This document shows positions 37,296 through 64,000 of a stretch of DNA of 64,000 nucleotides, in pieces. The translations under genes were made by a program, and so were the position numbers. Each line of letters opens with the position of its first letter. Position 1 is the stretch's first letter. The DNA comes from Thuidium tamariscinum (Eukaryota > Streptophyta > Bryopsida > Hypnales > Thuidiaceae): NCBI GenBank assembly GCA_947034885.2, contig OX344749.2, positions 29,651,501-29,715,500 on the forward strand. Reading direction: 5' to 3'. Below the pieces are notes generated by a model. The model had not been told where the DNA came from, ran no database searches, and was given only the letters and a program-made list of their open reading frames with translations.

Positions 37296-37613
37296 CTCCC
37301 CCCCTCCTCTCCGGAGGGACCCAATCAAAGTTCAAATAGGATTATAGATTACAAAACTTGTTAATTGATAACAGTTGCAAATTCCACTCGCCATACGAAC
37401 CAGGCATTCGGACGCTGATCGAGAGTTAACGAAGTGGAGAAGTAGAAAAGTAAGGATTGCAGATTGTACGTAGTTTTGCAACGACTAATTCGTGACTGAC
37501 TGACGTACCGGTATCAGATGTTTCCTGCGGTGTTGGACCATTTGTTGCTGTTTTTCCAGCGTCAGGATTATAGAGGGATTTGCTCTGCAGAATCAGATTG
37601 TTGCAGAAGGGGT

Positions 37614-39135
37614 GAGTTTGACTGAGGTTTCATTTTAGGGTTATGGTTTGGGGGTTTGGGATTATGTTTTAGGATTTCGGGTTATGGCATTGTTAAATTT
37701 GGTGTTCAAGGACAAAGAAGGAAATTGGTTCACGGCTTTAACTATGAACGAGCTATCCATGCTGAGGACGATGCTCCAGCTGCTATTGGGTCATCTTTGA
37801 GATCCTCATGTCCTTGGAGAATCTTGGCCGTGAAAGAGGAGCTTTATTCTAAGAGTAGCAAGTCGCAGGCATGTTGAGATTCGGGGCTTATTAGTTAGTG
37901 CGTGCAAGCAGTGGTAATCGCCACACAAGCTGCTTTGTATTCCAGAAGCGAAATCTGGGACTTCGGTGCGGCGCTCGAATAGACGAGCTCTTGATTGATG
38001 CTGGTGCTAAGTTCTTCCCCTTTGAGAACTGGAGAAAAAAAAGAATTACAAATCATAACGCTTCTGAACCAAAGTCTGAACTTGACTTCCGTTTTGAACG
38101 GGATGGAGTGGAGGCTTATTGCCAGACCACCACCTACTACTGCGTCTTGTGGCTTAGCTTACTCTTTTGGATGCATTCTGGATTGCTCTTTGAGTATGTG
38201 CCCCCACTCTAGCTCCAAGTTTGGTCACACTGTCACCAAGTCTAGCTATGTTGTTTCCCCATGATAGACACGCACCTGGTCTGACTTACAGCATTCAGAT
38301 CGCCAATTAGAAATGTCAGTTAGCAATATCATTATCACTGGACTGAAATGCCTCCAGGCAGGACTTCGACTCATCCGCAATCGCGGAGCAGTCCCTCCTC
38401 GGGCCAAAATAGGAAATCAGCATTGACGAAGAGAGGATGAAACGTGGAGTTGAAGTTATGATGACGATACTCCGTGGAAATTCTAGTTCTTCCAGCTTAC
38501 CAATAACACAGAGAAATTCAATCTATAGAAAGGCCTTACCATCCCGCAGGCGTGATGGAGAGTTGTTTCTGACCTCGCTTCCTGAACATAACCAGACGAA
38601 GAACATGAACTAAACAAACGTGCACATCTGCAGATTGAAATTGCAACCACAGTATAGCAGATACCTTCCTCTCGTCGGCATCATCGTCGTCGTCGTCGTC
38701 GGTCTCACGAGGACTAAGGCCTCCACTGCATGCTATCCCAGGATTGTTTTCAATATCCTCTCGCGAGTAGTACTTCAATCCGGGTGCTTCGTTCTGCATG
38801 TACAAACGGATTGCTGAAAATTCAGAGCTACTTTGAATTGCAGGTACTCTCAAATAGGAAATCGAAAAAATTTACAAACCCAATTCTCTAGGCTTGAGGG
38901 TGCGCACGAGCTTGTCCGTTTCAGCTTGCTTGCCTACTTTGGGAGTGAATGCTTCATCCGGTCCTCTATCCTGTTCATTAACACCACACCTTTAGCTGTA
39001 TCAGCCCGAACGTCCATGAACAAGCTTTGTGAGCAGCAATCTTCACAATCTGGAGCTTCCACGGGTACTCTTCGTCGGAAATGGCTTCAAGGAAGAATTC
39101 CTGAAAATGAAAATTTGAATCCGTAGTTTGAATCC
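37614..39135. repeat. Palindrome, outer left arm
   Basis: Reverse complement of about 62465-64000. The homology reaches the window end, so the outer limit is not seen. Differences include scattered substitutions and a 13-bp segment present only on the right (near 63490). In the three best exons compared there are about 11 differences in about 290 nt. Confidence 0.9.
37700..37985 (+). pseudogene. Unidentified coding relic, left copy
   Basis: Sequence reading VFKDKEGNWFTALTMNELS, then MLRTMLQLLLGHL, runs into a stop at about 37799. The next frame continues as EILMSLENLGRERGALF and a third as VVIATQAALYSRSEIWDF, so the stretch looks like an old frameshifted coding region. The protein is not recognised. 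A nearly identical copy lies at about 63629-63914 on the other strand. Confidence 0.35.
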
Positions 39136-39151
39136 GTTTGGAGTAACTTAC

Positions 39152-39202
39152 CTTGAGCCTCCGTGCTCTGTTCTTGAGTACGGAGGTATATACATAAGCC
39201 AT
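39152..39202 (-). other. Possible new first exon created by the insertion
   Basis: An ATG at 39202 opens MAYVYTSVLKNRARRLK, ending exactly at CTCAAG followed by GTAAGT. That donor lies in the duplicated 23-bp flank and is in phase with the next exon (EFFLEAIS, 39100). A transcript starting here would skip the TAG at 42924. This is inference; no promoter was identified. Confidence 0.3.
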
Positions 39203-39478
39203 ATTTCTTTTTAAATTTAAAAATTAATTTTTTAATTTTAAAGTACTCCCCAAAAAATCATGAAAACGCAACAAATAGTACAAGTGTTTCTTGCAATCAC
39301 TTGAATGCCTAATTAATATGACCATGATTGACTTAAGTTACAAATCCATGACCATAACAATGCAAAAATTACTTCATTTGATATAATAAAACAAAAAATA
39401 CTATTTGCATTACAATTACAACTACGAGCTTTACTATTCAATCATCATTAAAATTAGATTATTCTAGATTCATACATC

Positions 39479-39756
39479 ATTAGGAGGGATTGGAGGCCTC
39501 TACGGGGCTGTTTTAGGGTTTGTTTCTGAAATAGTGCAGGGAACTGCTGGTTGTTGTCAGCGAACAATTACCCCAAAAAATAAATTGGGGGGTGTCCTAA
39601 AATATGAAAAAAGTTCAATTTTGTTTTTGTTTTTGGGTTGACCTGGCATGGGCTTGGCCACGCTGGAATCCTGCATTTTGGGATTCCCACAGCAGTTTCG
39701 GCATTCTCAAACTATAGTAATCCACAGTCTTGTAGAAGCCTCTAATCCCTCCTAAT
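39479..39756. mobile_element. ATTAGGAGGGATT-type TIR element, copy 1 (278 bp)
   Basis: Ends ATTAGGAGGGATTGGAGGCC and its inverted partner pair over 25 bp with two mismatches. It is non-coding. A relative lies at 51517-51799, sharing CCTAAAATATGAAAAAAGT inside. Confidence 0.75.
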
Positions 39757-40083
39757 GTGTATCAAGAAAGTAAGTGTTGGTCAAAGTAAACAAATACTAG
39801 TCTAGTCAAAGCATTATTTTCTTTGAAGAAAATGTCATATTGTATTCATTGTATATAATTAATACATCAAAATTAAACTGGTACAAATTGAATACCAAAC
39901 TTGTGAAATTTAAGTGCACATTAATCTATATATTCTATTGGACTAGAAATAAATTTTTGTTTCAATCTAGGATCCCTTGCCTTGTTAGATTGTCAATGTA
40001 GAGATTATATGAGTATATGACGTCTTTTACATTTTAGCAATCAATTTTAGACTTGAAATCTAACAAACCGATTTGTTCACTAG

Positions 40084-40266
40084 GATTCACATAAACACAT
40101 GATATCATCAATCTCATTAAATTGGCATGACCATGTGTCAAAAAGATTCACATAAACACATGATATCATCAATCTCATTAAATTGGCATGACCATGTGTC
40201 AAAAAGATTCACATAAACACATGATATCATCAATCTCATTAAATCGGCATGACCATGTGTCAAAAA
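40084..40266. repeat. Tandem repeat, 3 x 61 bp
   Basis: Three nearly identical units start GATTCACATAAACACATGAT at 40084, 40145 and 40206. The only difference spotted is one T/C change in unit 3. The near-identity means recent amplification. Confidence 0.93.
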
Positions 40267-40615
40267 TTGTGACATGAATCTACATAAAGCTTTCAAAACT
40301 TGGACAAGTGTTGGTTTACCAGATTTACTCGGTCTACATTTTGAGCTAAAAGCTACAACAAGAGAACCTAAAAGTGTCAAAGCTGTGGAAACCCACCGAC
40401 TTGACAAACTTCACATTGCTTGTGTCTCTCACAAATCAAAGTCGATTTCATTATATCGTTGGAATTAAACAATTTTAATTTGTTATTATTCAGACCCCAA
40501 AAGTAAATCTACATCGGCCCTAATTTTTAGAGCTTTGTGACAATTCTAGAACTGGCACCCAACCAATCGCACCAATTGTATTAACGACTAGTGTGGTATT
40601 GGACACCGCCACACA

Positions 40616-40645
40616 GTTTGTTTGTTTGTTTGTTTGTTTGTTTTG
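40616..40645. repeat. (GTTT)n microsatellite
   Basis: An uninterrupted GTTT run of about six units, followed by T-rich sequence. Confidence 0.9.
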
Positions 40646-41251
40646 TTTTTTGTTTTTTTTCTTTCGGCTTTCAATAACTATTTGGCTAAAAACTGGCAAC
40701 GAATTGTGAAGTTTTTTGTTTGTAAAATTTGAATAAAAAAAAAATCTTGAATGAAATTGCTAGATTGTGGATGAAAACAAAATTATGGACATGTGCTATA
40801 TACAATGTGATATATTCTATCCAATATGGAGATGAATGTTGAAATTTGGAGCACCACTATAACATATTACATACCCACTAATCAAGAGGAATGCAACTTG
40901 TTTTATCTCACATGATTCCATCTTCACACAATCTATGAGTTCATCAATGCATCACCTAGTTAATCCTAAATTAATGTATTACTCAAGTTAAGTATCTTCT
41001 GGTATTTGCACATGGAAGCAAATACCGGGGCAACTTGAAGTTGGTGTGCCAACAAGATAATGATATACTGAGTTATGCATACAGCATACGTGCATGGGCC
41101 GAATGGGCCGACTGATCGATCAGAAGTACCCTAACTTCGAAAATGAATGGAGAGGCCCTCCAAGTTAAGGTAACGAGGCTTTTATCTGCCGAATCAAAAG
41201 CAAGCACAATGCGTCGTGCTTTTCATGATTCTGAGACGTTTAATTCATTCG

Positions 41252-42142
41252 TCACACGCACATCATCACGCCATTCCTTATTCCAGTCGATCTTCCGCAG
41301 CACACCGTGAACTTCCTCCTTCCATGTATGAGCTTCAGAGCTCGAACAATGCTCGACCCAGCCGGAATCACCTCACCCGGATCCGGAGAACTTCCAGTAC
41401 TTTCACAATCCTCATCACGGACGGTGATCGACGTGGGTGGTGAGAAACCGAACTGCGGATAATTGAGGTTCAGGATGTCGCCCGTGGCCGGAGTTGCAAT
41501 TGACAAGGACCTCGATTTTCTGCTTGGCCCGAGCCCTGCCGCATATCGGGAATCCACAATGTATGAAAACATCGTGTCTGTAGGAGAAGTCACTCCGGAG
41601 TACCAAGCTAGGAATTCGTCGATGTCCGGAGATGATGGAGACCTGAATCTACTACTTGGCCCTGTCGCATATGGGGAATATGCAGATGAAGGTTGAGTCG
41701 CTCCATCGTATCGAGCTATTGAAATATCATCATCTTCTTCCTCCTCAGATGAAGTTGCCGAAACCGAAATCACAGTATATGAATCAACACTCTTCATCGC
41801 AATTGAAGCGGCTGGAAGTGAATTAGTATGCATTGCTGCGATTGAATAATGTGGTGGTGGCGTCGAGGGTTCCCTCCTTGCAGGGGTTAAACGGAGAGGG
41901 ATTGTAAGTTTCATATCGACGAGTTTTCGTGGCGGACCATGCAATCGCTCCGGTGAAAATTTACGCAGCCAACGTTTCGCTGGTGGCTTCTGCTGTACCA
42001 CTCGGAATTTTCCACTGCGCTTGAATTGTGTAAACTGACGCCAGCATCCAATGCAGTGGTACTTGGCTCCTGACTTCGCAATGTGAAGAGTAGGATTGGG
42101 GCAGTCTGGTCGAGGGCACGTCATCACCTCCGTGCTTGTCAT
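41252..42142 (-). CDS. Zinc-ribbon protein of unknown function (296 aa)
   Basis: Single-exon gene inside the 3.74-kb left-arm insertion. The ATG at 42142 opens MTSTEVMTC. Cysteines 9, 14, 30 and 33 form a C-x4-C-x15-C-x2-C zinc ribbon (CPRPDC, then YHCIGCWRQF). The YxCxxCxRxF end resembles the DNA-binding zinc ribbon found at the start of some transposases and transcription factors. The rest is low-complexity: a basic stretch (KRWLRKF), a Pro/Ser-rich middle and an acidic EEEEDDD tract. No catalytic domain is seen. The frame stays open upstream of this ATG to about 42238, but without another ATG. GC and codon use are higher than in the AT-rich flanks, so the frame is likely real. It is absent from the otherwise matching right arm. 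The role is unknown; it could be a nuclear DNA-binding protein or a domesticated element remnant. Confidence 0.6.
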   Translation of the reverse strand: MTSTEVMTCPRPDCPNPTLHIAKSGAKYHCIGCWRQFTQFKRSGKFRVVQQKPPAKRWLRKFSPERLHGPPRKLVDMKLTIPLRLTPARREPSTPPPHYSIAAMHTNSLPAASIAMKSVDSYTVISVSATSSEEEEDDDISIARYDGATQPSSAYSPYATGPSSRFRSPSSPDIDEFLAWYSGVTSPTDTMFSYIVDSRYAAGLGPSRKSRSLSIATPATGDILNLNYPQFGFSPPTSITVRDEDCESTGSSPDPGEVIPAGSSIVRALKLIHGRRKFTVCCGRSTGIRNGVMMCV

Positions 42143-42579
42143 GGTAGTTGCTTTGGGCTCACGCTTCGTTGTGGCCGGCCACAGAAATGCAACCAGATGG
42201 GAAACTAGAAACGTGGCCAAGTTAAAGTTTCTTAGCAAACCCTTGTCGATGTCTAGCCTAACAAATAACTTGATGCAAATCTCCTTGACTGATTACTACC
42301 AATGTTTAAATGGGTACTGTACGTTACAGCAAAACGGCCTTGAGATGGGTCAAGTGCGCGCAAGCAACCCTGCATTCTAACAACGCAGGAACTATGGGCT
42401 ACGAGGGACCCTGCTCTGTGAAATGGCCTGGCCGGGGAGAGAGCAAGACCGAAGTGAACTCAATCGCTGGATCGAAGTGAAATCAATTCTGTGCTTCTTC
42501 TTCATTTATAGGTTCCAACTTCCATTCTGCAGAGGCATGATCAACTGCCTTGAGACCCACTCTACACATTTGGTTAATT

Positions 42580-42899
42580 ACTCCAACACACAAGTGCATT
42601 CGGCGAACACGCTCTCCCTCCGTCTCGAGCGCGTGCGCCTCATCCCGAGCGGCGCCCCTGCAGCAGCTCGCAAACACACGACCGACTCGTCGCCACCGCC
42701 GCGCAAGCGCTCCATCTCCAAAATCCTGCATGCGCCCGTCCCGCAAGTCCTGCCCTGCCGGAAACGGTCTCGAACAACGCGCCCGCACCCCCACCATCGC
42801 CATCAGCATCAGAATCATTCGCAGTAGGAACATCAAGACCTTCAGCTTTTCAAGCCCTTGAATCCCGACCCTCCAAGAAGCGCCCCAAAACAGAGCACG
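42580..42899 (+). other. GC-rich coding-like segment at the insertion edge
   Basis: A sharply GC-rich block with Pro/Ser/Ala-rich open frames. One frame ends SRPSKKRPKTEHGLE just at the insertion border, and an overlapping frame reads SSPPPRKRSISKILHAPV. Which frame, if any, was coding cannot be decided. It looks like an exon fragment captured from elsewhere. Confidence 0.35.
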
Positions 42900-43880
42900 G
42901 TTTGGAGTAACTTACCTTGAGCTAACGAGTTGGTTGGCCCACGCAGGCCTGACTCAAATCTTTGCAAAGAAGCTTCAGCGATCCACCTCGATTAGCCCCA
43001 GCCTTGAAGAAATACTCCGCAACATCAGGGTCATACTCGCCCATGACCTGAGTCCATGAGTCACATGTTGGATTGCAAATAAATTTAGGGCCACTTCATT
43101 GATGGCATTCCTATAAAAACATGTACAAGCGGTCACTACCACATTCTTCAAGTCTAGTTGCATTCTATACGTTCCGCGCGGATCTGTACGAAACGAAACA
43201 AAGCACGTTAGAAGTCATTAGGAGTGTCAAGGTGTGAGGACGAATGCAAGTACTGTCCCTCTCAACAAGCTCGATCAATAGTTTGACAGCCCTCCGTCGG
43301 TTGTTCTACAAGCTTTAGCTTGAAGCCAGCCACAACCAACTTAAGTGGAAAACAAACCAAGCTACTGTCAATGCAAGCATTTGATAACATAAATCTTCCT
43401 TTCGCATCTGAGAATATCTGGAGTTCTGAACCTTCTAAGGCGAAAATCTCATAGCAATCTGTAATATATATTCTATACCACATCGATCCCGCAACCTCCC
43501 TCTTGGCTTTCAGATAATGAAATCTTTATTTGCAATCAGTTCAAATTACAGGTCATTCAATTCCTGTGGCAGATTTGCCACCACTTCAATGATACAGGTA
43601 CTTCCTGAGCTGAATCCTCAAACCGTATCCCAAACCCTAACTCTCCGATGGAATGAATTATCGAAGTGTCTCCCTCCTGTAGTTGCTGCGCACATTCTAT
43701 GGAAGAAAATGCAATCAACATCACCTCTCCACAGTCACCTGTAAAACCATCATACAGTAACACCCCATATATATGCAAATTGCTCGAGTTAATCTTTGCT
43801 ACGCCATCTCCAAGTGAACTCCAGGACCCAATTGGATGTGCTTGCCACTGCTAGTCCTCGTCCGTAAACAAACATGTCTA

Positions 43881-45140
43881 CTACGGTACGACATCGAACT
43901 TGACCTCCACCAAGAAAGGTCCTGCATAGTCCTTCCTGATCGACACCCCCCAGTTTTGAACCACGTAATCCTTTTCAGGAAAGCTGTGCCAGGACTTGGT
44001 CAGCATGTGGAAAACCTTCAGAATAGTCCCCACGTCAATACCCAGGCCTCCAGAATTCAGCTGAGCATCCGGTTTGCGGAGGTAAGGTAACTTGAAAATG
44101 AGAACGACCACATCGTTCATGACACGAAGGCAAGTCCATGTTTCCTCCAGCTTCGGACATTCGCAGACGAGCTCCCACGTTTCGGCAGCCAACAACCTCT
44201 TCCAAACTCCATGCTGCCGACCTCGCGCACAAAGCTTGTACAAGTCCCCGGAGACGAAATCTACCGAATGCGCGATGTACTCGTCATCGCAAAAATCTCC
44301 ATGGGATTCGTAGAGATTAAAGATCTTGACACATCTGGCCTTTGTGTAGATAGCGGCAACGTTCTCGTGAAAGGAGGGTGAAGACATGTAGTGCATGGTG
44401 AATGCTTCCCTGTCATTCAAAAGAGCCATGTTGTCTTCCTCGTTTCTGCTCCATCGGTTCTCCACCGAATCGTAAACCTCCCAAAGCATCGAACCTGCCA
44501 CGGCATATTGGAATGTGATCGTATATCCACCTTGAGCTTCTGGCATAGAATCCATTCGTACGAAAGAGGGCAATGTGGACATTTTGCTGGGGTGGGGGAG
44601 TGCACGGCGAAAGCCAGTCACCACATTCATCACAAAAACTCGGAGCTCAAGCATGTCCCCGGGGTAAGTTCTCACTCTGTTTTCATGCTCAATGACACAC
44701 ACCAGGCCATTGACCGTTGCTGCGACGTTGGTATTCCAATCGACCTCCGGGCAACGCGCAATGCCAGGCCGGAAACACTCCTGCCCCTCGTCCTGGGTCA
44801 GGAACATGGTCCCATCCACCTTGTCGTGCACCATGAGAGCGATTCTCACCAAGGAAGCTCCTTCAAATGCAGCTTGGAAATGCGAAGATGTGATGCCCGA
44901 CCTCCAGGTTTTGTTCAAGGACCGCAACCGGAGGATGTCCTTTACTGGCAGTCGTGCAAAGACTCGTAGTAAGACCTCCTCGGGAAGTCTGCCCCATAGC
45001 TCGGAATCCAAAGTAGGAGCTGCATCTTCCTCAACTGCCACAAACTCCTTCCTCACGCGATTCTTCCCCAGAAATGCATCTTCAACGATGAGATGCTTGA
45101 GAGTCACCGAGCTGGTCTTCTCCGATGCACTTGCCGCCAT
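43881..45140 (-). CDS. F-box protein, left copy (419 aa)
   Basis: Substrate-recognition subunit expected to join SKP1 and cullin 1 in an SCF ubiquitin ligase. The F-box covers about residues 47-88 (LWGRLPEEVLLRVFARLP, then LRLRSLNKTWRS). The remaining 330 residues look like the beta-rich F-box-associated/kelch-like half common in plant families, without clear repeats. It is a single exon starting MAASASEKTSS. A TTTATT (AATAAA on the coding strand) lies about 350 bp downstream at 43527-43532. The protein is identical to that at 60223-61482. Target unknown. Confidence 0.9.
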   Translation of the reverse strand: MAASASEKTSSVTLKHLIVEDAFLGKNRVRKEFVAVEEDAAPTLDSELWGRLPEEVLLRVFARLPVKDILRLRSLNKTWRSGITSSHFQAAFEGASLVRIALMVHDKVDGTMFLTQDEGQECFRPGIARCPEVDWNTNVAATVNGLVCVIEHENRVRTYPGDMLELRVFVMNVVTGFRRALPHPSKMSTLPSFVRMDSMPEAQGGYTITFQYAVAGSMLWEVYDSVENRWSRNEEDNMALLNDREAFTMHYMSSPSFHENVAAIYTKARCVKIFNLYESHGDFCDDEYIAHSVDFVSGDLYKLCARGRQHGVWKRLLAAETWELVCECPKLEETWTCLRVMNDVVVLIFKLPYLRKPDAQLNSGGLGIDVGTILKVFHMLTKSWHSFPEKDYVVQNWGVSIRKDYAGPFLVEVKFDVVP

Positions 45141-47257
45141 GATGATAATTGCCTATATGAGCTGCCATAGCCGAACAATTTGGGATCAGTGCAACAAGTT
45201 TAAGAAGAAATTCCCACCTCTTGTTAACAACCTCAATTGATGTATTCTTTTAGCCTATGAACTACAATTGTTGGAAAATGTGGGAGCAAACCACTGTAGT
45301 CCAAATTTGCTGTCAATAGTTGAAAAAAAGAAAATAAATATAAAACAGTCTATCATTTACTTCACAAATTGTTTTAGGTAGCTTGTGTTGTGAGTTTTTG
45401 CCTTTAAACTATAAAAAATAACCTTTGAAATAACCTTTGAAAGATTCTATGGAAGAACACTCTAAGCACCCTTTTGATCACGTGACCGACTACATTTCTC
45501 TTCGTAGCACTATTGATTGACTACTCTAATAGGAACGCAATTTCCTTCTTACTATTAGTTTGCTAAGTTAGATTGATAAAACAAAAAACAATAGAAGATG
45601 AGTGCTAATGCCTACAACAGAGTGATTTGCAACAATAGCAAGGAAACAAACATAGAATATATTGATTATGAGTACATAAGTGCTCACAACTCTTAAATCT
45701 CTTTAAAACAGAAACTAGCAACGCAAGCTTGATCTTGCGATAGTTGGACGCAAAAGAAGGCTAATCGTGCTACTTTGGAGATGAAGAAGGTAGAGAAGGA
45801 CATTCTACAGTCACATCCCTCCAAATGTGGACCGAGACGCAACACGAAGAAAACCCTAAGGAAGAAAACCCTAAGGCTACCACTATGACGTATTCTTTTC
45901 ACAACATTGTCTATCGTAGGCACCGGTACATAATGTTGTTTGGTACCTTTGTTTGACCAAAGTCTTGAAAGATTTCAAGAAAATACTTCTATTAAATAGC
46001 TCCTTTTATAAATAGCATGTTGTCCATTCTTTAGATAGTTGGAAATTTATTTATCACCTTTCAATGAAGATATATAGTATTTAAAACTTTTCAAAAACCT
46101 TAAGTTTTAATTGTCTTTACATCAAATAAATCAACTTGTAAAAGTCTTTGGTCATACATATATATATGCACAATGAATTTTAATAATAATTGTGCCAAAT
46201 ATATAGATTTAAAATATTATAACTAGTAATTATTCATGCAATAAAAATAGGGATTTGCAAATTACAATAAATGCCCATGCTAATGTATATTGAAATCAAA
46301 AAGTATTAAGAGATTGGACCTATTTAATCTAATTAAATGATCTTCCTTCAAAAAGAATGAAAATCTCTAAGGGCTCAAAATTGATAAATATGCATCCAAA
46401 AAGTTTTTTGGCAAATTGCATTGTGCATATTAAATTTAGATGTTTCATTGATAGCATTTGAAATATGATTTTTCACTTTTAAATATAGTTTTTTGAAATC
46501 AATAGAAGTATATTTTAATTTTTTATTATTTAAAAAAAATTCCAATTTCAATTTTTTCGATGTTCAACAATTCAAAATAATCTCTCAATAGTTAAAGACT
46601 AAATCACTTAAATTGTGAATACTAGTTATTAAATACAACTTTAAGAAATAATTTATTAACAACTCTCAAATGCTAGTAGTAAACTATGATCCATGATAGA
46701 TCAATCATATCCATTAAGTTACATCAACTAGTTTACAAATTGATATTTTTCAATAGAATTTGGAGCCCCAATTGATATAGGAAGTGTTTTCCATTGTAAA
46801 TATTTGTGATTTCCATTAAAAAAAAGTTCATCCATTGCACTTTTAAGACAATTGTCATTGGTGAATTTGGTATTGTAGAAATGATGATAGTAATTTTTCA
46901 TCCATCATATTTTTGGATTGTCATTATATTGCATACAAGAATATTCACCTTCTTTGCAACAACTAATTCATAACTTTCAAAGAAGTTAGCCTTACAATTT
47001 GTTTAAGCATATCATTAAAAAGTCAAAAGTAGAGATTATGGAATTGAAGGCCTTTAACCCCTAATGATCCCAAATGACCATTTTTGGTTGATGCCTTTCT
47101 TTTTTGAGTTGCCCTTCCTCAAATTTTGAATCAAAAAACAAACAAGTGTTATATCTAAAAATTGAATTGCATCATAAATCCAATAGCAATAGTTTTATTA
47201 GATTCCAAGATAACTTTGCCTTGTAAAATTCTTTAAAATTGAGCAACGTGGGAATCA

Positions 47258-47415
47258 TTGGTAATCAAGTATTCAAAGAACTATAGAAGATTTCCACTTT
47301 CCACTCCTAAAACCGAGGATGAATGCTTGTATTTCCATGCTATATGGGACTATGGGAGAATCCCTTGTCATTCATCGGACCTTTCTGGTCTGTGGCGTCC
47401 TTACAAGGTTAAATG
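47258..47415. mobile_element. Degenerate relative of TIR module family B (left arm)
   Basis: Resembles the reverse complement of 6489-6726: TATAGAAGATTTCC, then CTTTCCACTCCTAAAACCGAGG, and a CTTACAAGGTTAAATGG end. The terminal repeats are worn. The mirrored copy in the right arm is at about 53080-53236, within 10 bp of the right-arm insertion point. Confidence 0.45.
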
Positions 47416-51799: not shown

Positions 51800-52253
51800 G
51801 GCTAGAAACTAAAAAGGAGGGGGAATTGGGGATTTTAAGTGATTAAAATCAAAGCTTTGCTATCATGATAATTTTATACTAAAAAATAAAGAAAATGAGT
51901 GTATTAATATCTAAAGTAACACATACAAAGCCAAAGTTTCTTCGTTTTGGACGTTTCAATTAGGTGGACCAAAGAAAAGAAAGGGGAGTTTTAAAATAAT
52001 TGAAATATCACCAACACGCAAAGTCAAAGATTCATTGTAAGTTTAGAAATGGCATTAAAAAAATGTGAAAAATGTAGAAATACTCACTCATCAAGCTCAT
52101 ACAAAAATAACAAATACAAAGTAATGTGACATTCTATACAATTTTGACTAGTCACATTGTTGAGATTCATCTTAAATAATTTTGAAGTATCAATGGCCTC
52201 TAAACTATAATTATAAATTCCATAAGAATTAGAATATTATTAAACTATAAAAC

Positions 52254-53246: not shown

Positions 53247-53658
53247 GGTTTTAGAAATGTTGAATTCCAAAGGGACCTCCCGCATCCTTACAGGATTAAC
53301 TCCAAGAAGATTGAGGGTGTTTGAGCATAGTTCTTGCCTTTTTCTTCAAGTGACAACCTACTTAGAGCACCTTCTCTATCTTGGAGACATTCACCTACAA
53401 TTGCATGCTTGCTCATTTCTCAATTGGATTGCACGGACGTATTCGACGGGAATAGAAAAGCATCTTAGGTCTCTTTGTTTCAATAAGTATGTAATATTCA
53501 CATTTCAAATTTTCAAAATTGCAGTTGCAAAAACCAATTAGCCCTAAGCCACCCAAGCAACCAGGCAGCCTTGAGTTTCAAGAAGGGCTCCCTTCATTGG
53601 GGCCCTTCAAGGCATTGACGGACCAGATGGAAGGGCAAGTTGCTTGGGCCAACATGGT

Positions 53659-53910
53659 AAATCTCATTTTACTAGGGGTTGACAAGGGTTTGGGGTTTAT
53701 ATTTGTGTTGGGTTTTTTGGTATGTTTAAGGTTTTTCTTGCTAACTTAGGGTCTCTGATTTTGAATCTAAATTTTGAATTTGAAAAATCTCATTTTACTA
53801 GGGGTTGATAAGGGTTTGGGGTTTATATTTGTGTTGGATTTTTTTGGTATGTTTACGGTTCCCCTTGCTAATTTGGGGTCTTTGATTCTGAATCTGAATT
53901 CAGAATTTTT
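53659..53910. repeat. Two-copy 126-bp tandem repeat
   Basis: Units start AAATCTCATTTTACTAGGGG at 53659 and 53785 and differ by scattered substitutions. Confidence 0.88.
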
Positions 53911-54318
53911 TTTTCTTGAAATTAAAATTTTTCTTAGCGTTTTCCTTGAGGGTTTTGATGGTATTATTTAACGCGGTCCCCAAAATAGTATCATGTCACA
54001 CCCTTGCATCTGGTCCATCAATGTAGTGAAGAGCCCCGATGAAGGGAGCCCTTCCTGAAACTCGAGGTTGGCTGGAGACGAGGCTAAGCCACTGTTAACC
54101 CTGAAACGTCTCAATCCTTTTTTGAATTTTTGCACATTTTTGCTTATAGTTTTGTACAGATATATCTTTTACCAAAATTTAATGAATTTGGTCATGAAGG
54201 AAGGTTGTCTTCTCTAGATTCAAGTGTTACATTTGATAAATTAGAAGTTAATTGGATGAAACAGTGCCTTGAAGGCCTCTGTTCATCATCCAGAATATGG
54301 ACATCGGAGCGCTTCAGG

Positions 54319-54432
54319 GTTAATCCTGTTTGGTAATGAGTTGGGTCCCTCCGGACGGGGGGAGGGTTGCGCCTTTGTTAATCCGGTTTGGTATTGAGTT
54401 GGGTCCCTCCGGAGAGGGGGGAGGGCTGCGCC
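54319..54432. repeat. Duplicated U2 3' tail (2 x 58 bp)
   Basis: Units begin GTTAATCC at 54319 and 54377 and both run through GAGTTGGGTCCCTCCGGA to GCGCC. The second unit contains the real U2 3' end on the minus strand, so the U2 terminus and its downstream flank were tandemly copied. Confidence 0.75.
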
Positions 54433-54614
54433 AGCCAAGGAGGAAGTGCAATACCGAGGCGACGTGCGCGGGGCCGGGCAGCAAGCTGCCGGGTGGCCCC
54501 GCACCCTGGAAAAATTAGATTAATATCATGGGAGTCGATGACCCCCGTATCAGATATTAAACTGATAAGAACAGATACTACACTTGATCTTAGCCAAAAG
54601 GCCGAGAAAGGTAT
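54423..54614 (-). ncRNA. U2: U2 spliceosomal snRNA, copy 2
   Basis: Same RNA as 37105-37295 on the opposite strand, about 192 nt. The 5' half agrees with the conserved U2 sequence, including GTAGTATCTGTTCTTATCAG and TTTAATATCTGATA, where copy 1 has changes. The Sm-like site and 3' stem-loop are intact. A TATA box (GGTATATAG) lies about 30 bp upstream. The expected USE position reads GCCCCGTAAGG, a poor match, so expression may be weak. It sits next to an ADH relic just as copy 1 sits next to ADH. Confidence 0.93.
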
Positions 54615-55434
54615 GCTTCAACCTTCAAACCCCGAGGGCTATATACCCGCAGACTCCCCTCCACCGTCGCAAACCTTACGGGGCAACGTACTCCATGAAA
54701 CCTTTTGTCTCGCGCTCCCACTTCCCACCCTCCGCCTTTAGTTGTTCGATCAACAAGCACAATGAAGTGTTCCAAAGCCAAGCATGCAACCAGAGGACGT
54801 ACTGTACGTCGTAGGAATCATTCGACCAAAGCACCTCCGACACAAGTTGAGCAATTCCTGCCATTACAAACGGTGAACGCTAGTTCCTAGCGTCATGGAT
54901 CGACAAATTAATTAAGCCGTTCAGCTGAGTACGGCATGGTACAAAGGGAGTCGCAATTCCCGACTCGTGCAAACGAAGGGAACCCACGGCAACGCAAAAG
55001 TGCGCGCACAGAGGCCGGCAGTACTCGCTTTGATTTAATTTAATTAATTTGGGCTCATGGAATTCCAGAGCCATGCTTGTGCTTCCGATCTTTACGGCAT
55101 GCTTCGGCACCCGTTCGATAGTATTTGATCGTGAGTCATCCGCCAACAACCAATTCGGCGGGTCAAGTCTGGAATAATCATGGACACTCTGTGCCCGGAC
55201 CGGCATTTTCACACAGTTTCCACATTATGTTGCACCGGCCTATTTTTTAATTCAAAGTTTCGGAAAGCCATCAACGTACAATAAGGACAGCCATCGACAT
55301 ATCCACGAAGTTGTTGGAGTGGAAGTACGTGTTTAGGTCAGGCTCCTAGCTGATCGGTGGGCGGACTCATTAGTAATGGCTACTGGTTCGCAGCTGCATG
55401 TGGAATCCTCTCGACATACATTAGGATTGGAACG

Positions 55435-56965
55435 TATGTCCTTATAGTGCAACCCAGTGCACACGCACTCTCCGGCTTGCAAGAGCTCGAACGCTTTGTT
55501 GATCTCGGAGAACGGCAATGAAGCTAAGTTATGGGTGATGGACTGGTCCACATCGAGGTCCTGCACGCACAAGCGCATCGTGCACCCAACGCCCGCCCGC
55601 CCGCCCGCCATCGGGGATCGAATCAAGGTCAGCCTGCATCCCTCTCATGAAGAAAGTTGCATATCAATTGATTTCAGTTCTCACAAATTCATAAAGATGA
55701 CAGTGGTTGAATAGCGACTAACGTGGCAATATTGATGGCTCGTTATGAGTTTCATTATTTTCACATACGATACATTCAAGCGGACGGTGTTTTTGTACAC
55801 GGGTTTTTTTTTCCCGAAACAAAGTGTGGCGATACTAACGCAAATTAAGTGGGTCGTCAGATTCCACTGCCAAACTACAGTAGTAAAGAACCTGCACTAG
55901 ACTCGTCACGACCATTCCAAGCGCTACACTAAAATTGGTAAATAGTGTTGACAACACTAATTTGCTGAGAGAACACTAAATGTGATTAGCAAGGTTAGTG
56001 TTAAAAGATTATTTACCCATTCTAAAATTATTTTAGCTCTATAGTAAATTACGGTTTTCTAGGAAAGGGATAGATTTTCACAAGGGGAGGCAAAAATTAT
56101 AGTTTTGTAGAGAAGGGACAGATTTTCATAGCGGGGGCAAAAATTACAGTTTTCTTAAAAAGGGACATATTTTCACGGTGCAAGGCAAAAATTACAATTT
56201 TGCAAGGAAATAATAGATTTTTACAACGGGGGGCAAAAATTAGAGTTTTGCAGGGAAGGACAGATTTTTATTGCAAAAATTAATTGCCCCAACACTATTT
56301 ACACATAAGTTAAAAAATAGTGTTGGAGGTAAAAAATAGGGAACAACACTAATTATCACCCAACACTAATTATCACGCAACACTATTTACCAATTTTAGT
56401 GTACCAGGACTGGCCTAGGGTGCAATAGACAAGTCCCGTTGGGACACGTGAAGAGTTGAGTTGAGGAGAAGACTGTACCTACACTAAGTTCCTGTTGGAA
56501 GCCCACATCAACAGGGGGACCAATAGAGGACAAGACAATAAAATAGATAAATAAATATAACAAATACTTCATTCAATTTGTGGTACTCCTAGGCCATTTT
56601 TCCATTGATTTTTTAAGATTGGTATAGACTCTAGACCTTAGGATCTTGGCATCTAGGAGCAGTTTACATTTTAGACCACACAGTCTAAACCTGCAAATGC
56701 TAAGTTTGTAAAATATCGCTATTTTGATGAAATATCCATTATATAAGCTAACTGAATAATATGATCTAGTGAGTTTCACAATTTTGTGGATTGATGATCA
56801 ATATTTGAAGCACTCCACGTGGTCAACCAGATCAAACTCTTGACAAAAATAATGTTGCCATGAAATCTTGGAAGGTAGTCTTAATTCATTTATAAGGAAG
56901 GCCATGATTCATACCCTTACACAAATATTGCTCTACAAGCTTGGGCAAATCAGATTTGGACCATA
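55435..56965 (-). pseudogene. ADH relic (3' end of exon 9 to exon 10)
   Basis: Decayed inverted copy of about 36010-36821. The exon 10 counterpart, 55560-55435, reads DLDVDQSITHNL, then an extra ASL, then PFSEINKAFELLQAGEC. It then loses the normal end and stop. The exon 9 tail is recognisable near 56920-56965 (LVEQYLC). The introns still match (for example the CACGACCATTCCA region, 55900). Earlier exons are absent. A 475-bp TIR element splits the intron. Confidence 0.85.
55927..56401. mobile_element. 475-bp TIR element with TA target duplication
   Basis: Perfect 24-bp terminal inverted repeats, starting CACTAAAATTGGTAAATAG at 55927 and mirrored at 56378-56401. The parental ADH intron keeps the empty site GGTAGCGC (reverse GCGCTACC, near 36350). 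Here it reads GCGCTA, element, TACC, so the target duplication is TA. That fits Tc1/mariner-type non-autonomous elements, although CACTA-like ends might suggest otherwise. Inside are CAACACTAA subterminal repeats and about five degenerate 50-60-bp units with GGGACAGATTTTCA and GGCAAAAATTA (56050-56290). It has no coding capacity. Confidence 0.92.
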
Positions 56966-58107
56966 CTTAGACATGGATTTGTATAGCTAGAATTATTTGA
57001 GAGCTACCATTAGAGAAAATATGGACTCTGTGGAGGGCCATCAGACTTTGACAAACCAGTCTATTACTGCACCTATACTGCACCTCTACTAAGCTACTGA
57101 AAGGACAAAATTACTGACAGAAATGCCTTTCAGCTTGTGTGAATATCTTAAGCATCTTCCTTTTTTAATTCTATATCTGTCAGGGAGAGATGACAGGTTC
57201 CCTCTTTCGCAGTCCACCTGGAAGCTGGAAGCTGCAACTTGAATTTTTTTTGTATTTCCTTTACGATTAAATGCTCTGACAACACAAAAACTGACACGAA
57301 CGTCAATAGGGGAAAAAAACTATAGAAATGAAAATAAATCTTTATGATGGGTCTCTCTGGCAGCGCGTAGCGGCCCTCCGGAGAGCCCATATTTTCTCTA
57401 ATGAAAAAATCTCCCCAAAAAATATGTAGATTTACTACATTGTATAGGTTTTATCATTCACTTAAAAAAAATTGTTCACATCTAAGTATATTCATCATAC
57501 TACAAAAAATTTGTATGGACCAATTTTGTAAAGGCGAATTTATTAATAAGAATTCCTATTAAATGATGTTATTGCATAGCCTAATTTATATATAATAAAA
57601 TATGTAGAATTTCAAGTATCCTATAGTAGACCTATATATTTTATAAAATTTATTTTCCCCCAAAATGGAGAGTGATCTCTCTAGGTAGATTATTTGATAT
57701 CTCAATTTATTAGACATTTATTTTTTGGGGTCTTATTTGAGTCTATGAAAAATTAGGGCACTTTACTTTGAAGGACCTTACCTTCGAAAAATGAATTTGA
57801 AAAATTGACCTCTTGAATTTGATAAAAGACAAGAGGGTTGAAAACGTTTATCAAAATTTTTACAATATCTTCAGCCTTCTTAAATTCATGTTGGAGCTTG
57901 CTATGCATAGTAGTTATTGAATTAAGAGTAGTTTCTGTCTTTAAGAAAATAAGAATGGGATACTTATCTTTTTGATTTGCCCCTTGAATTTTCTCCTTTT
58001 GAGAGTAAAATAATCATTTTGAGGAGAGAAACAATAGAATTCATTTGGTTGGTTGATTTTCAATCCTTGCCTAAATCAAATCCAAAGAAATGAGTTGTAA
58101 ACTACAC

Positions 58108-61100
58108 CACACCACACTGCTCAATTTTAAAGAATTTTACAAGGCAAAGTTATCTTGGAATCTAATGAAACTATTGCTATTGGATTTATGATGCAATTCA
58201 ATTTTTAGATATAACACTTGTTTGTTTTTTGATTCAAAATTTGAGGATGGGCAACTCAAAAAAGAAAGGCATCAACCAAAAATGGTCATTTGGGATCATT
58301 AGGGGTTAAAGGCCTTCAATTCCATAATCTCTACTTTTGACTTTTTAATGATATGCTTAAACAAATTGTAAGGCTAACTTCTTTGAAAGTTATGAATTAG
58401 TTGTTGCAAAGAAGGTGAATATTCTTGTATGCAATATAATGACAATCCAAAAATATGATGGATGAAAAATTACTATCATCATTTCTACAATACCAAATTC
58501 ACCAATGACAATTGTCTTAAAAGTGCAATGGATGAACTTTTTTTTAATGGAAATCACAAATATTTACAATGGAAAACACTTCCTATATCAATTGGGGCTC
58601 CAAATTCTATTGAAAAATATCAATTTGTAAACTAGTTGATGTAACTTAATGGATATGATTGATCTATCATGGATCATAGTTTACTACTAGCATTTGAGAG
58701 TTGTTAATAAATTATTTCTTAAAGTTGTATTTAATAACTAGTATTCACAATTTAAGTGATTTAGTCTTTAACTATTGAGAGATTATTTTGAATTGTTGAA
58801 CATCGAAAAAATTGAAATTGGAATTTTTTTTAAATAATAAAAAATTAAAATATACTTCTATTGATTTCAAAAAACTATATTTAAAAGTGAAAAATCATAT
58901 TTCAAATGCTATCAATGAAACATCTAAATTTAATATGCACAATGCAATTTGCCAAAAAACTTTTTGGATGCATATTTATCAATTTTGAGCCCTTAGAGAT
59001 TTTCATTCTTTTTGAAGGAAGATCATTTAATTAGATTAAATAGGTCCAATCTCTTAATACTTTTTGATTTCAATATACATTAGCATGGGCATTTATTGTA
59101 ATTTGCAAATCCCTATTTTTATTGCATGAATAATTACTAGTTATAATATTTTAAATCTATATATTTGGCACAATTATTATTAAAATTCATTGTGCATATA
59201 TATATGTATGACCAAAGACTTTTACAAGTTGATTTATTTGATGTAAAGACAATTAAAACTTAAGGTTTTTGAAAAGTTTTAAATACTATATATCTTCATT
59301 GAAAGGTGATAAATAAATTTCCAACTATCTAAAGAATGGACAACATGCTATTTATAAAAGGAGCTATTTAATAGAAGTATTTTCTTGAAATCTTTCAAGA
59401 CTTTGGTCAAACAAAGGTACCAAACAACATTATGTACCGGTGCCTACGATAGACAATGTTGTGAAAAGAATACGTCATAGTGGTAGCCTTAGGGTTTTCT
59501 TCCTTAGGGTTTTCTTCGTGTTGCGTCTCGGTCCACATTTGGAGGGATGTGACTGTAGAATGTCCTTCTCTACCTTCTTCATCTCCAAAGTAGCACGATT
59601 AGCCTTCTTTTGCGTCCAACTATCGCAAGATCAAGCTTGCGTTGCTAGTTTCTGTTTTAAAGAGATTTAAGAGTTGTGAGCACTTATGTACTCATAATCA
59701 ATATATTCTATGTTTGTTTCCTTGCTATTGTTGCAAATCACTCTGTTGTAGGCATTAGCACTCATCTTCTATTGTTTTTTGTTTTATCAATCTAACTTAG
59801 CAAACTAATAGTAAGAAGGAAATTGCGTTCCTATTAGAGTAGTCAATCAATAGTGCTACGAAGAGAAATGTAGTCGGTCACGTGATCAAAAGGGTGCTTA
59901 GAGTGTTCTTCCATAGAATCTTTCAAAGGTTATTTCAAAGGTTATTTTTTATAGTTTAAAGGCAAAAACTCACAACACAAGCTACCTAAAACAATTTGTG
60001 AAGTAAATGATAGACTGTTTTATATTTATTTTCTTTTTTTCAACTATTGACAGCAAATTTGGACTACAGTGGTTTGCTCCCACATTTTCCAACAATTGTA
60101 GTTCATAGGCTAAAAGAATACATCAATTGAGGTTGTTAACAAGAGGTGGGAATTTCTTCTTAAACTTGTTGCACTGATCCCAAATTGTTCGGCTATGGCA
60201 GCTCATATAGGCAATTATCATCATGGCGGCAAGTGCATCGGAGAAGACCAGCTCGGTGACTCTCAAGCATCTCATCGTTGAAGATGCATTTCTGGGGAAG
60301 AATCGCGTGAGGAAGGAGTTTGTGGCAGTTGAGGAAGATGCAGCTCCTACTTTGGATTCCGAGCTATGGGGCAGACTTCCCGAGGAGGTCTTACTACGAG
60401 TCTTTGCACGACTGCCAGTAAAGGACATCCTCCGGTTGCGGTCCTTGAACAAAACCTGGAGGTCGGGCATCACATCTTCGCATTTCCAAGCTGCATTTGA
60501 AGGAGCTTCCTTGGTGAGAATCGCTCTCATGGTGCACGACAAGGTGGATGGGACCATGTTCCTGACCCAGGACGAGGGGCAGGAGTGTTTCCGGCCTGGC
60601 ATTGCGCGTTGCCCGGAGGTCGATTGGAATACCAACGTCGCAGCAACGGTCAATGGCCTGGTGTGTGTCATTGAGCATGAAAACAGAGTGAGAACTTACC
60701 CCGGGGACATGCTTGAGCTCCGAGTTTTTGTGATGAATGTGGTGACTGGCTTTCGCCGTGCACTCCCCCACCCCAGCAAAATGTCCACATTGCCCTCTTT
60801 CGTACGAATGGATTCTATGCCAGAAGCTCAAGGTGGATATACGATCACATTCCAATATGCCGTGGCAGGTTCGATGCTTTGGGAGGTTTACGATTCGGTG
60901 GAGAACCGATGGAGCAGAAACGAGGAAGACAACATGGCTCTTTTGAATGACAGGGAAGCATTCACCATGCACTACATGTCTTCACCCTCCTTTCACGAGA
61001 ACGTTGCCGCTATCTACACAAAGGCCAGATGTGTCAAGATCTTTAATCTCTACGAATCCCATGGAGATTTTTGCGATGACGAGTACATCGCGCATTCGGT

Positions 61101-62456
61101 AGATTTCGTCTCCGGGGACTTGTACAAGCTTTGTGCGCGAGGTCGGCAGCATGGAGTTTGGAAGAGGTTGTTGGCTGCCGAAACGTGGGAGCTCGTCTGC
61201 GAATGTCCGAAGCTGGAGGAAACATGGACTTGCCTTCGTGTCATGAACGATGTGGTCGTTCTCATTTTCAAGTTACCTTACCTCCGCAAACCGGATGCTC
61301 AGCTGAATTCTGGAGGCCTGGGTATTGACGTGGGGACTATTCTGAAGGTTTTCCACATGCTGACCAAGTCCTGGCACAGCTTTCCTGAAAAGGATTACGT
61401 GGTTCAAAACTGGGGGGTGTCGATCAGGAAGGACTATGCAGGACCTTTCTTGGTGGAGGTCAAGTTCGATGTCGTACCGTAGTAGACATGTTTGTTTACG
61501 GACGAGGACTAGCAGTGGCAAGCACATCCAATTGGGTCCTGGAGTTCACTTGGAGATGGCGTAGCAAAGATTAACTCGAGCAATTTGCATATATATGGGG
61601 TGTTACTGTATGATGGTTTTACAGGTGACTGTGGAGAGGTGATGTTGATTGCATTTTCTTCCATAGAATGTGCGCAGCAACTACAGGAGGGAGACACTTC
61701 GATAATTCATTCCATCGGAGAGTTAGGGTTTGGGATACGGTTTGAGGATTCAGCTCAGGAAGTACCTGTATCATTGAAGTGGTGGCAAATCTGCCACAGG
61801 AATTGAATGACCTGTAATTTGAACTGATTGCAAATAAAGATTTCATTATCTGAAAGCCAAGAGGGAGGTTGCGGGATCGATGTGGTATAGAATATATATT
61901 ACAGATTGCTATGAGATTTTCGCCTTAGAAGGTTCAGAACTCCAGATATTCTCAGATGCGAAAGGAAGATTTATGTTATCAAATGCTTGCATTGACAGTA
62001 GCTTGGTTTGTTTTCCACTTAAGTTGGTTGTGGCTGGCTTCAAGCTAAAGCTTGTAGAGCAACCGACGGAGGGCTGTCAAACTATTGATCGAGCTTGTTG
62101 AGAGGGACAGTACTTGCATTCGTCCTCACACCTTGACACTCCTAATGACTTCTAACGTGCTTTGTTTCGTTTCGTACAGATCCGCGCGGAACGTATAGAA
62201 TGCAACTGGACTTGAAGAATGTGGTAGTGACCGCTTGTACATGTTTTTATAGGAATGCCATCAATGAAGTGGCCCTAAATTTATTTGCAATCCAACATGT
62301 GACTCATGGACTCAGGTCATGGGCGAGTATGACCCTGATGTTGCGGAGTATTTCTTCAAGGCTGGGGCTAATCGAGGTGGATCGCTGAAGCTTCTTTGCA
62401 AAGATTTGAGTCAGGCCTGCGTGGGCCAACCAACTCGTTGGCTCAAGGTAATATAA
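58108..62456. repeat. Palindrome, inner right arm, distal part
   Basis: Reverse complement of about 42923-47246. Identity is complete in the parts compared except for isolated changes close to the outer edge (for example at 62209 and 62440). Confidence 0.95.
60223..61482 (+). CDS. F-box protein, right copy (419 aa)
   Basis: Same 419-residue protein as 43881-45140 with no amino-acid difference. The F-box is at residues 47-88 and the C-terminus reads FLVEVKFDVVP. It is a single exon, with AATAAA at 61833. The shared flanks mean both copies should have the same promoter. Identity at this level implies either a very recent duplication or ongoing gene conversion. Like its twin it is expected to act in an SCF ubiquitin ligase; the target is unknown. 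Confidence 0.9.
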   Translation: MAASASEKTSSVTLKHLIVEDAFLGKNRVRKEFVAVEEDAAPTLDSELWGRLPEEVLLRVFARLPVKDILRLRSLNKTWRSGITSSHFQAAFEGASLVRIALMVHDKVDGTMFLTQDEGQECFRPGIARCPEVDWNTNVAATVNGLVCVIEHENRVRTYPGDMLELRVFVMNVVTGFRRALPHPSKMSTLPSFVRMDSMPEAQGGYTITFQYAVAGSMLWEVYDSVENRWSRNEEDNMALLNDREAFTMHYMSSPSFHENVAAIYTKARCVKIFNLYESHGDFCDDEYIAHSVDFVSGDLYKLCARGRQHGVWKRLLAAETWELVCECPKLEETWTCLRVMNDVVVLIFKLPYLRKPDAQLNSGGLGIDVGTILKVFHMLTKSWHSFPEKDYVVQNWGVSIRKDYAGPFLVEVKFDVVP

Positions 62457-63060
62457 GTTACTCCAAACGGATTCAAACTACGGATTCAAATTTTCATTTT
62501 CAGGAATTCTTCCTTGAAGCCATTTCCGACGAAGGATACCCGTGGAAGCTCCAGATTGCGAAGATCGCTGCTCACAAAGCTTGTTTATGGACGTTAGGGC
62601 TGATACAGCTAAAGGTGTGGTGTTAATGAACAGGATAGAGGACCGGATGAAGCATTCACTCCCAAAGTAGGCAAGCAAGCTGAAATGGACAAGCTCGTGC
62701 GCACCCTCAAGCCTAGAGAATTGGGTTTGTAAATTTTTTCGATTTCCAATTTGTGAGTACGTGCAATTCCAAGTAGCTGTGAATTTTCAGCAACCCGTTT
62801 GTACATGCAGAACGAAGCACCCGGATTGAAGTACCACTCGTGAGAGGATATTGAAAACAATCCTGAGATAGCATGCAGTGGAGGCCTTAGTCCTCGTGAG
62901 ACCGACGACGACGACGAGGATGCCGACGATAGGAAGGTATCTGCTATACTGTGGTTGCAATTTCAATCTGCAGATGTGCACTTTTGTTTAGTTCATGTTC
63001 TTGATTTCGTTATGTTCAGGAAGCGAGGTCAGAAACAACTCTGAATCACGCCTGCGGGAT
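62180..63060 (+). pseudogene. Canopy/DUF3456-like gene, right copy with internal stop
   Basis: Exons 62180-62220, 62316-62447, 62504-62614, 62634-62724 and 62791 onward join in one frame and mirror the left copy without the large insertion. Exon 2 is intact (RWLK, TGG at 62439-62441), but the donor after it is GTAATA instead of GTAAGT. In exon 5 a CGA codon has become TGA (62841-62843), cutting the protein before its acidic tail. The 5' part of the gene is missing here too, with the F-box gene lying upstream. The family call is tentative. Confidence 0.6.
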
Positions 63061-64000
63061 GGTAAGGCCTTTCTATAGATTGAATTTCTCTGTGTTCGTG
63101 GTAAGCTGGAAGAACTAGAATTTCCCCCGAGTATCGTCATCATAACTTCAACTCCACGTTTTCATCCTCTCTTCGTCAATGCTGATTTCCTATTTTGGCC
63201 CGAGGAGGGACTGCTCCGTCATTGCGGAGGAGTCGAAGTCTTGCCTGGAGGCATTTCAGTCCAGTGATAATGATATTGCTAACTGACATTTCTAATTGGC
63301 GATCTAAATGCTGTAAGTCAGACCAGGTGCGTGTCTGTCATGGGGAAACAACATAGCTAGACTTGGTGACAGTGTGACCAAACTTGGAGCTAGAGTGGGG
63401 GCACATACTCAAAGAACAATCCAGAATGCATCCAAAAGAGTAAGCTAAGCCACAAGACGCAGTAGTAGGTGGTGGTCTGGCAATAAGCTAGGCGCAAAAT
63501 CCTCCACTCCATCCCGTTCTAAACGGAAGTCAAGTTCAGACTTTGGTTCAGAAGCGTTATCATTTGTAATTCTTTCTTTTCTCCAGTTCTCAAAGGGGAA
63601 GAACTTAGCACCAGCATCAATCAAGAGCTCGTCTATTCGAGCGCCGCACCGAAGTCCCAGATTTCGCTTCTGGAATACAAAGCAGCTTGTGTGGCGATTA
63701 CCACTGCTTGCACGCACTAACTAATAAGCCCCGAATCTCAACATGCCTGCGACTTGCTACTCTTAGAATAAAGCTCCTCTTTCACGGCCAAGATTCTCCA
63801 AGGACATGAGGATCTCAAAGATGACCCAATAGCAGCTGGAGCATCGTCCTCAGCATGGATAGCTCGTTCATAGTTAAAGCCGTGAACCAATTTCCTTCTT
63901 TGTCCTTGAACACCAAATTTAACAATGCCATAACCCGAAATCCTAAAACATAATCCCAAACCCCCAAACCATAACTCTAAAATGAAACCTCAGTCAAACT
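62457..64000. repeat. Palindrome, outer right arm
   Basis: Reverse complement of about 37614-39144, running off the window end. It is visibly more diverged than the inner arms, with substitutions, short indels and a shorter Asp-codon tract. Confidence 0.9.
63629..63914 (-). pseudogene. Unidentified coding relic, right copy
   Basis: Mirror of 37700-37985 with the same frameshifts, so the damage predates the duplication. The protein is not recognised. Confidence 0.35.

Follow-up and report, generated by a model that had tools for sequence, protein, structure and literature searches.

How can the two arms of a palindrome be identical along one part of their length and clearly diverged along another? 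The initial annotation of the locus described here offered two answers, gene conversion between the arms or two stacked events of different age. The window, that is, the whole stretch of 64,000 nucleotides of Thuidium tamariscinum DNA that was analysed, was aligned to itself. A large interrupted palindrome is present, made of three inverted blocks around a single spacer:

37615-39159 (left) and 64000-62440 (right), inverted: outer block, 96.0% identity
42900-47251 (left) and 62468-58112 (right), inverted: inner arm 1, 99.7% identity
47247-48239 (left) and 53247-52255 (right), inverted: inner arm 2, 100% identity
48240-52254: spacer, 4015 bp

The palindrome that had been annotated is thus real and its spacer of about 4.0 kb was recovered, but the arm bounds were wrong. 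The right arm is truncated by the window end at 64000, and position 37614 therefore marks no arm end but the left-arm point that faces this cut. The parent genome (C1:29.65-29.72 Mb) shows the left arm to cover 35010-48239 and the right arm to start at 52255 and reach 2.6 kb beyond the window, which gives an arm length of 13-14 kb. The additional part of the match pairs 35010-37614, inside the window, with 66612-64001 beyond it (window numbering continued), at 93.3% identity, gaps included. The inner arms are essentially identical, as had been claimed, but the arms are also separated by two large indels which had not been listed as such, 3.74 kb present only on the left (39159-42899) and 4.87 kb present only on the right (53248-58115). 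The right part of the spacer is related, in inverted and diverged form, to 28.0-30.9 kb. Of the 11 chromosome-size contigs C1 is the largest, and the locus sits half-way along it, a position that is uninformative on sex linkage.

The arms carry genes. The two identical F-box open reading frames that had been predicted are present:

43881-45140, minus strand: F-box gene of the left arm, 419 aa; PF00646, 4.1e-10 (Pfam)
60223-61482, plus strand: F-box gene of the right arm, 419 aa, identical to the left-arm protein

The outer flank of the left arm carries the 3' part of an alcohol dehydrogenase (ADH) gene and a U2 snRNA gene. The ADH 3' part was named by eye, because the 53-aa ADH-like peptide, like the joined exon-like peptide, gave no Pfam match up to E 10. 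An ADH_N match (Pfam) lies upstream of the flank at 33803-34258, and in the PDB the ADH piece is best related to class-P and class-3 alcohol dehydrogenases, class P being a plant class.

Alignment of the two arms revealed that divergence is not uniform along them. Rather than the single step at the 39.1/42.9-kb junction that had been proposed, a mosaic was observed, in which the near-identical inner arm is followed outward by three segments:

38039-39069 (left) and 62535-63576 (right): divergent island, 1.03 kb, 3.8% difference between left and right
37640-38038 (left) and 63577-63975 (right): tract A, putatively homogenised, 0/399 differences between left and right
35010-37639 (left), with its partner at 63976-64000 and in about 2.6 kb beyond the window: outer flank, 4.9% divergent from the right arm

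The island holds 39 substitutions in 1028 aligned bases, and its inner edge at 39069 lies about 90 bp outside the left-only insert. Tract A sits outward of the island and is a second identical stretch, separate from the inner arm. In the outer flank, counted up to 37639, 127 of 2604 sites are substituted. Over about 5.4 kb of aligned inner arm, the left and right copies differ by only 5 substitutions and one 5-bp deletion, with 0/3797 differences in the core (43305-47114) and none in the 990-993 bp of inner arm 2 when left is compared with right. All of these residual changes lie at most about 405 bp from a left-arm breakpoint, and the right arm has none of them (0, versus 5 substitutions and 1 indel on the left). 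Two extra left-only letters, 47246-47247, are part of the deletion junction. Segmentation on the window alone favoured three segments over two only modestly (BIC 497.4 versus 499.7); the contrast between tract A and the island became firmer when a third copy was added (Fisher 9e-5).

This third copy (C3) is situated some 90 kb beyond the right arm, and the outer and inner parts are contiguous, colinear and in the same order in all three copies. In the island (1016 sites compared three ways) the copies are about equally distant, with 3.8% between left and right, 3.9% between left and C3 and 4.2% between right and C3, and private changes are spread over all of them (16 on the left, 19 on the right, 20 in C3). 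In the core, the arms share 177 differences against C3 over 3797 sites, and in tract A they share 10 over 399, with 0 differences between left and right in both. Across the four segments heterogeneity is strong (chi2 171.6, 3 df). Between the outer flank and the island the balance does not differ (Fisher 0.43). Judged by C3, the arms are thus more alike than their age, the island and flank keeping the older divergence. A fourth copy (C4) was used as an outgroup to polarise the sites. In the core, 46 sites grouped left with right and 0 supported each of the other two groupings. In the island, the same grouping was favoured mildly, by 6 sites versus 2 and 0. Because of this mild signal, left and right may be somewhat nearer to each other than either is to C3, even in stretches that conversion would have spared.

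The third copy also gives a polarity to the right-only segment, which contains the following:

53248-58115: right-only segment, 4.87 kb; copy of 36.0-37.3 kb, older and diverged
54421-54614: U2
55302-56959: ADH 3' part, named by eye

C3 possesses both the outer 0.7 kb of this segment (57404-58112) and the 58.11-kb junction. The 4.9 kb is therefore, on this comparison, sequence deleted from the left arm; an insertion into the right arm was rejected, the third copy having the identical junction.

The left-only insert is a 3.7-kb mosaic (39159-42899), composed and flanked as follows:

39136-39158, plus strand: 23-bp direct repeat, copy 1, flanking the insert
39159-39172, inverted: 14 bp of the end of a B-box gene
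39478-39757: dispersed MITE-like repeat
40673-42565: related to C2:19.616-19.618 Mb
42586-42899: related to the B-box gene at C2:19.657 Mb
42900-42922, plus strand: 23-bp direct repeat, copy 2, flanking the insert

The 23-bp direct repeat is perfect, and the insert was considered as a transposon with a 12-bp terminal inverted repeat and a 23-bp target site duplication. This reading was rejected because both 12-bp inverted ends match one stretch of the B-box gene (C2:19.657 Mb), in opposite orientations, and there are no terminal inverted repeats owned by an element. Repair of a staggered break can also produce a flanking direct repeat. The closest relatives of the insert pieces are two C2 loci, 39 kb apart and in opposite orientation. 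At the left end of the insert the inverted B-box match extends to 16 bp, 2 bp of it common to the flank, and a weak candidate, a 15-nt inverted copy of the target with 87% identity, lies at 42572-42586 among 12 inverted pairs listed. Several source loci and micro-templates at the junctions, by which templated filler of double-strand-break repair is recognised, were thus found. The insert looks like a scar of template-switching repair whose pieces are related to two C2 loci, although its AT-rich part may be of transposon origin. With 3.7 kb it is long for plant double-strand-break filler.

We consider it very probable that an old inverted duplication was followed by gene conversion between the arms. 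The duplication would have included a block of genes (the ADH 3' part, the U2 snRNA, an exon-like fragment and the F-box gene) and would be roughly as old as the third copy. Afterwards, ectopic gene conversion, a non-reciprocal copying from arm to arm, would have homogenised the inner arm at 42.9-48.2 kb and, likewise, a separate outer tract of 0.4 kb, while the 1.03-kb island and the outer flank would have escaped and retained the older divergence. The left-arm mismatches, the 3.7-kb repair filler and the 4.9-kb deletion, probably limit the reach of the conversion tracts, since the island adjoins the filler and the remaining inner differences lie near two breakpoints. The mosaic, the third-copy comparison, the deletion polarity and the filler's relatives elsewhere are read directly from the letters; from them we infer conversion as the process, mismatch as the block and the succession of events. 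Conversion is usually proved with orthologous arms from several individuals or species, whereas here a third copy from the same assembly serves. That the residual inner changes are confined to the left arm is not expected from a simple conversion model. Error-prone repair near the breakpoints was not adopted as their cause, the changes being few. It is improbable, if conceivable, that a single event both homogenised the inner arm and left the filler: repair of a left-arm break would have copied the inverted partner arm from one side and, from the other, switched templates through loci on another chromosome, leaving a natural scar of one-sided invasion.

The large contrast in identity between inner and outer parts could also be produced by stacked duplications, an old one giving the outer parts and a young one the inner arms. 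However, both parts stand contiguously and in one order in C3, which in each of them is at about the same distance from the two arms, and this removes the need for stacked duplications; outside the island there is a further identical tract (37640-38038), and a young duplication that lands exactly in place in an old arm would be conversion under another name. We give this alternative, which had been left open, little credence. Equally, 0 differences over 3.8 kb and 1 kb would be expected if a single sequence had been placed or polished into both inner arms of a mis-resolved repeat, and all arm comparisons come from a single assembly seen without reads. Such an artefact is nevertheless very unlikely: the arms differ by the 3.7-kb insert, the 4.9-kb deletion, the 3.8% island and the 4.9% flank, there is no N in the window or in the following 119.9 kb, and the mosaic is unlike the pattern of fold-back reads.

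Finally, the palindrome might be young, one arm having either been converted by another copy, which brought in the island, or accumulated a cluster of mutations. The island is short and sharp-edged, and contains 5 adjacent substitution pairs versus 1.5 expected (P 0.02), but a comparable excess (P below 0.05) was found in 3 of 7 older repeat pairs of the window. An import or mutation shower is disfavoured by the split of the changes between the arms, neither of which is clearly nearer to C3, and by a transition/transversion ratio indistinguishable from that of these 7 older pairs (Fisher 0.125); the outer flank, moreover, has the same balance as the island. We regard this origin as extremely unlikely. 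Conversion between old arms is thus the preferred reading.

Conversion in a plant palindrome has already been described for W.P1/W.P2 of the willow (Salix purpurea) W chromosome, where arms are on average >99% alike in one part and 96-99% in another (PMC7023750). The willow palindromes resemble the present locus in their gene-bearing arms, indels between arms and evidence of conversion, but involve a 20-kb stretch common to four arms on a sex chromosome, whereas the arms here are 13-14 kb; conversion was tested there with a second species and here with a third copy in the same genome (PMC7023750). Mammalian sex-chromosome palindromes likewise have inverted arms kept alike by arm-to-arm conversion (PMC8981503, PMC3403216), although those described are large and, in PMC8981503, conserved between species, whereas the present locus is known from one genome. 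Filler and templated insertions described at plant double-strand breaks (PMC8395108, PMC3289645) share with the left insert the multi-locus pieces, a short inverted micro-copy at one junction and a short target duplication.

The locus looks like a clear, though not unprecedented, case of gene conversion in a palindrome. It is a compact one: the genome's own third copy allows conversion to be told apart from stacked duplication, and no second species is required. As the boundaries of conversion adjoin large arm mismatches, the locus may lend itself to studying how such mismatches restrict conversion tracts in palindromes, and also whether likeness of arms requires sex linkage.

Self-comparison of the window (G000:C1:29651501-29715500, in a 363-Mb parent genome with 19 contigs, of which 11 are chromosome-size) revealed three inverted blocks around a spacer of 4015 bp.

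Inverted blocks, left arm (L) with right arm (R)
37615-39159 with 64000-62440, 96.0% identity
42900-47251 with 62468-58112, 99.7% identity
47247-48239 with 53247-52255, 100% identity

The initial annotation had recognized a large inverted repeat with a spacer of about 4.0 kb, as found here, but its arm ends at 37614 and 64000 have to be moved outward: with flanks from the parent genome, the match runs on beyond the window end (35010-37614 with 66612-64001, window numbering continued). The left arm measures 13,230 bp and the right arm 14,358 bp; subtracting the insert found only on the left and adding the segment found only on the right gives 14,357 bp for the left (our arithmetic, which leaves small indels out). 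Over its right part (49043-52253), the spacer forms a diverged, inverted match (65-82%) to 28050-30858, about 20 kb upstream; this match ends within ~16 bp of the arm end, the exact distance depending on the alignment. Elsewhere in the window, an Abhydrolase_3 gene lies in pieces on the minus strand (6983-9378; 7004-7486 and 8722-9378), separated by repeats at 7721-8269. The best PDB relatives listed for the second piece are alpha/beta hydrolases and lipases.

Both arms carry the same 419-aa F-box ORF, bearing out the two identical proteins noticed initially, and the gene has matches at 11 listed places in the parent genome.

F-box gene matches
both palindrome arms, 100%
C1:29812227-29813498, third copy (C3), 98%
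C1:29385101-29386361, fourth copy (C4), 85%
C9:14403603-14404872, 76%
six further listed places, partial

The ORF is intact in C3 (404/419 residues identical, dN 0.016, dS 0.032), has 444 aa with a different end at C4, and 267 aa at C9. A dN/dS of ~0.5 implies moderate constraint at most. In an exon-like fragment beside the gene, each arm has a stop at a different place (42923/62440 and 38763/62841), the right-arm letter at 38763/62841 being common to C3; its reading as coding sequence is doubtful. In an Rfam scan of the window and five fetched loci, copies of the duplicated block bring U2 snRNA genes with them.

U2 snRNA genes
37105-37298, 162.8 bits
54421-54614, older copy inside the right arm, 173.8 bits, best score of the five
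locus L009, 417-610, 156.1 bits
locus L018 (includes C3), 3812-4004, 158 bits
locus L021, 7536-7654, 60.9 bits

Differences between the arms were counted by piecewise alignment. The outer block contained 40 substitutions, 39 of them in 38039-39069 (the island) and one at 37639, and the outer flank, taken to 37639, had 127 in 2604 aligned bases. Inner arm 1 (42900-47251/62468-58112) showed five substitutions and a 5-bp indel, and at the deletion junction two letters more. No difference was seen in inner arm 2 (47252-48239/53247-52255). The divergence previously read as a step thus takes the form of an island, a model only modestly favored by BIC on the window alone (497.4 vs 499.7).

C3 lies at ~156.3-164.8 kb (window numbering continued), in the same order as the arms (92.6-93.9% identity with gaps, outer and inner parts). 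In a three-way alignment, sites gapped in any copy were left out, which in the outer flank removes 910 sites with a base in both L and R, at 41 of which these two differ.

Three-way divergence
outer flank 35010-37639: L-R 5.1%, L-C3 6.6%, R-C3 5.7%, 1694 sites
tract A 37640-38038: L-R 0, L-C3 2.5%, R-C3 2.5%, 399 sites
island 38039-39069: L-R 3.8%, L-C3 3.9%, R-C3 4.2%, 1016 sites
core 43305-47114: L-R 0, L-C3 4.7%, R-C3 4.7%, 3797 sites

Ratios of L-R differences to differences shared by L and R against C3 were 86:59 (outer), 0:10 (tract A), 39:20 (island) and 5:201 (inner, 42923-47245), and were heterogeneous (chi2 171.6, 3 df; Fisher 9e-5 for tract A, 2e-26 for inner and 0.43 for outer, each against the island). 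With C4 as outgroup, 46 core sites grouped L with R and none supported the other two groupings; the island gave six sites for L+R, two for L+C3 and none for R+C3, and the short outer part within C4 coverage four, two and six. Together, these comparisons indicate that inner-arm identity arose later than the divergence of the three copies, and that island and flank retain most of the older divergence. Directly before C3, fragments at L018 1813-2423 resemble portions of the F-box region (85-90%), which hints at another broken unit there.

The arms also differ in structure. Since C3 continues like the right arm at the right-only segment (57404-58112; junction letters agree up to a small indel), the left arm has lost these 4.87 kb (53248-58115). 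They contain a copy of the 36.0-37.3 kb stretch, U2 included, that is older and more diverged. The left-only insert (filler, 39159-42899), lacking in C3, is a mosaic. Its 42586-42900 piece is 97% identical to a B-box gene at C2:19656634 (10 differences/315; PF00643, E 2.2e-6), and 40875-42565 matches C2:19.616-19.618 Mb at 92.9% with gaps (64 mismatches and 58 gap columns in 1729), with weaker matches of neighboring pieces (40673-40867, 85%; 40514-40606, 70%). Because relatives also occur at C4, in two places ~23 kb apart (41255-42146, 91%; 42253-42576, 93%), the C2 loci are the closest relatives found rather than proven donors. Of the 48 matches listed for the insert, 32 (plus four short ones) fall to a dispersed repeat at ~39465-39761, with 40 of 4473 candidates scored, and three 61-bp tandem repeats (99% matches) lie at 40084-40266. 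The left end is an inverted 14-bp piece of the B-box gene end, with 2 bp common to the flank; an inverted match of 11 letters linking the insert's first 40 letters to its last 60 was reached in 5/20000 shuffles. Both copies of a perfect flanking 23-bp direct repeat lack 5 bp present in the right arm and C3. The insert resembles a product of template-switching break repair more than a single transposon; a transposon origin is conceivable for its AT-rich part.

Ectopic gene conversion between the arms, homogenizing the inner arm and tract A, is the best reading of this one assembly, and of the two options offered initially for the like inner arms it is the one that the C3 and C4 comparisons favor. 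Of the five remaining inner substitutions, three sit at most 405 bp from the filler edge (42923, 43155, 43304) and two at most 137 bp from the deletion junction (47115, 47196), leaving the 3810 bp between 43304 and 47115 free of any. All are changes on the left arm, a one-sidedness that a simple model of conversion would not produce. The best-matching filler pieces differ from their C2 relatives by 3.2% and 3.8% (our arithmetic, gap columns left out), so the filler is probably older than the last homogenization of the core, a dating that fails if the C2 loci are not direct donors. Because these substitutions cluster at the filler edge and deletion junction, and the island lies next to the filler's outer edge, the data fit a process in which structural mismatches such as filler and deletion would limit the reach of conversion tracts.
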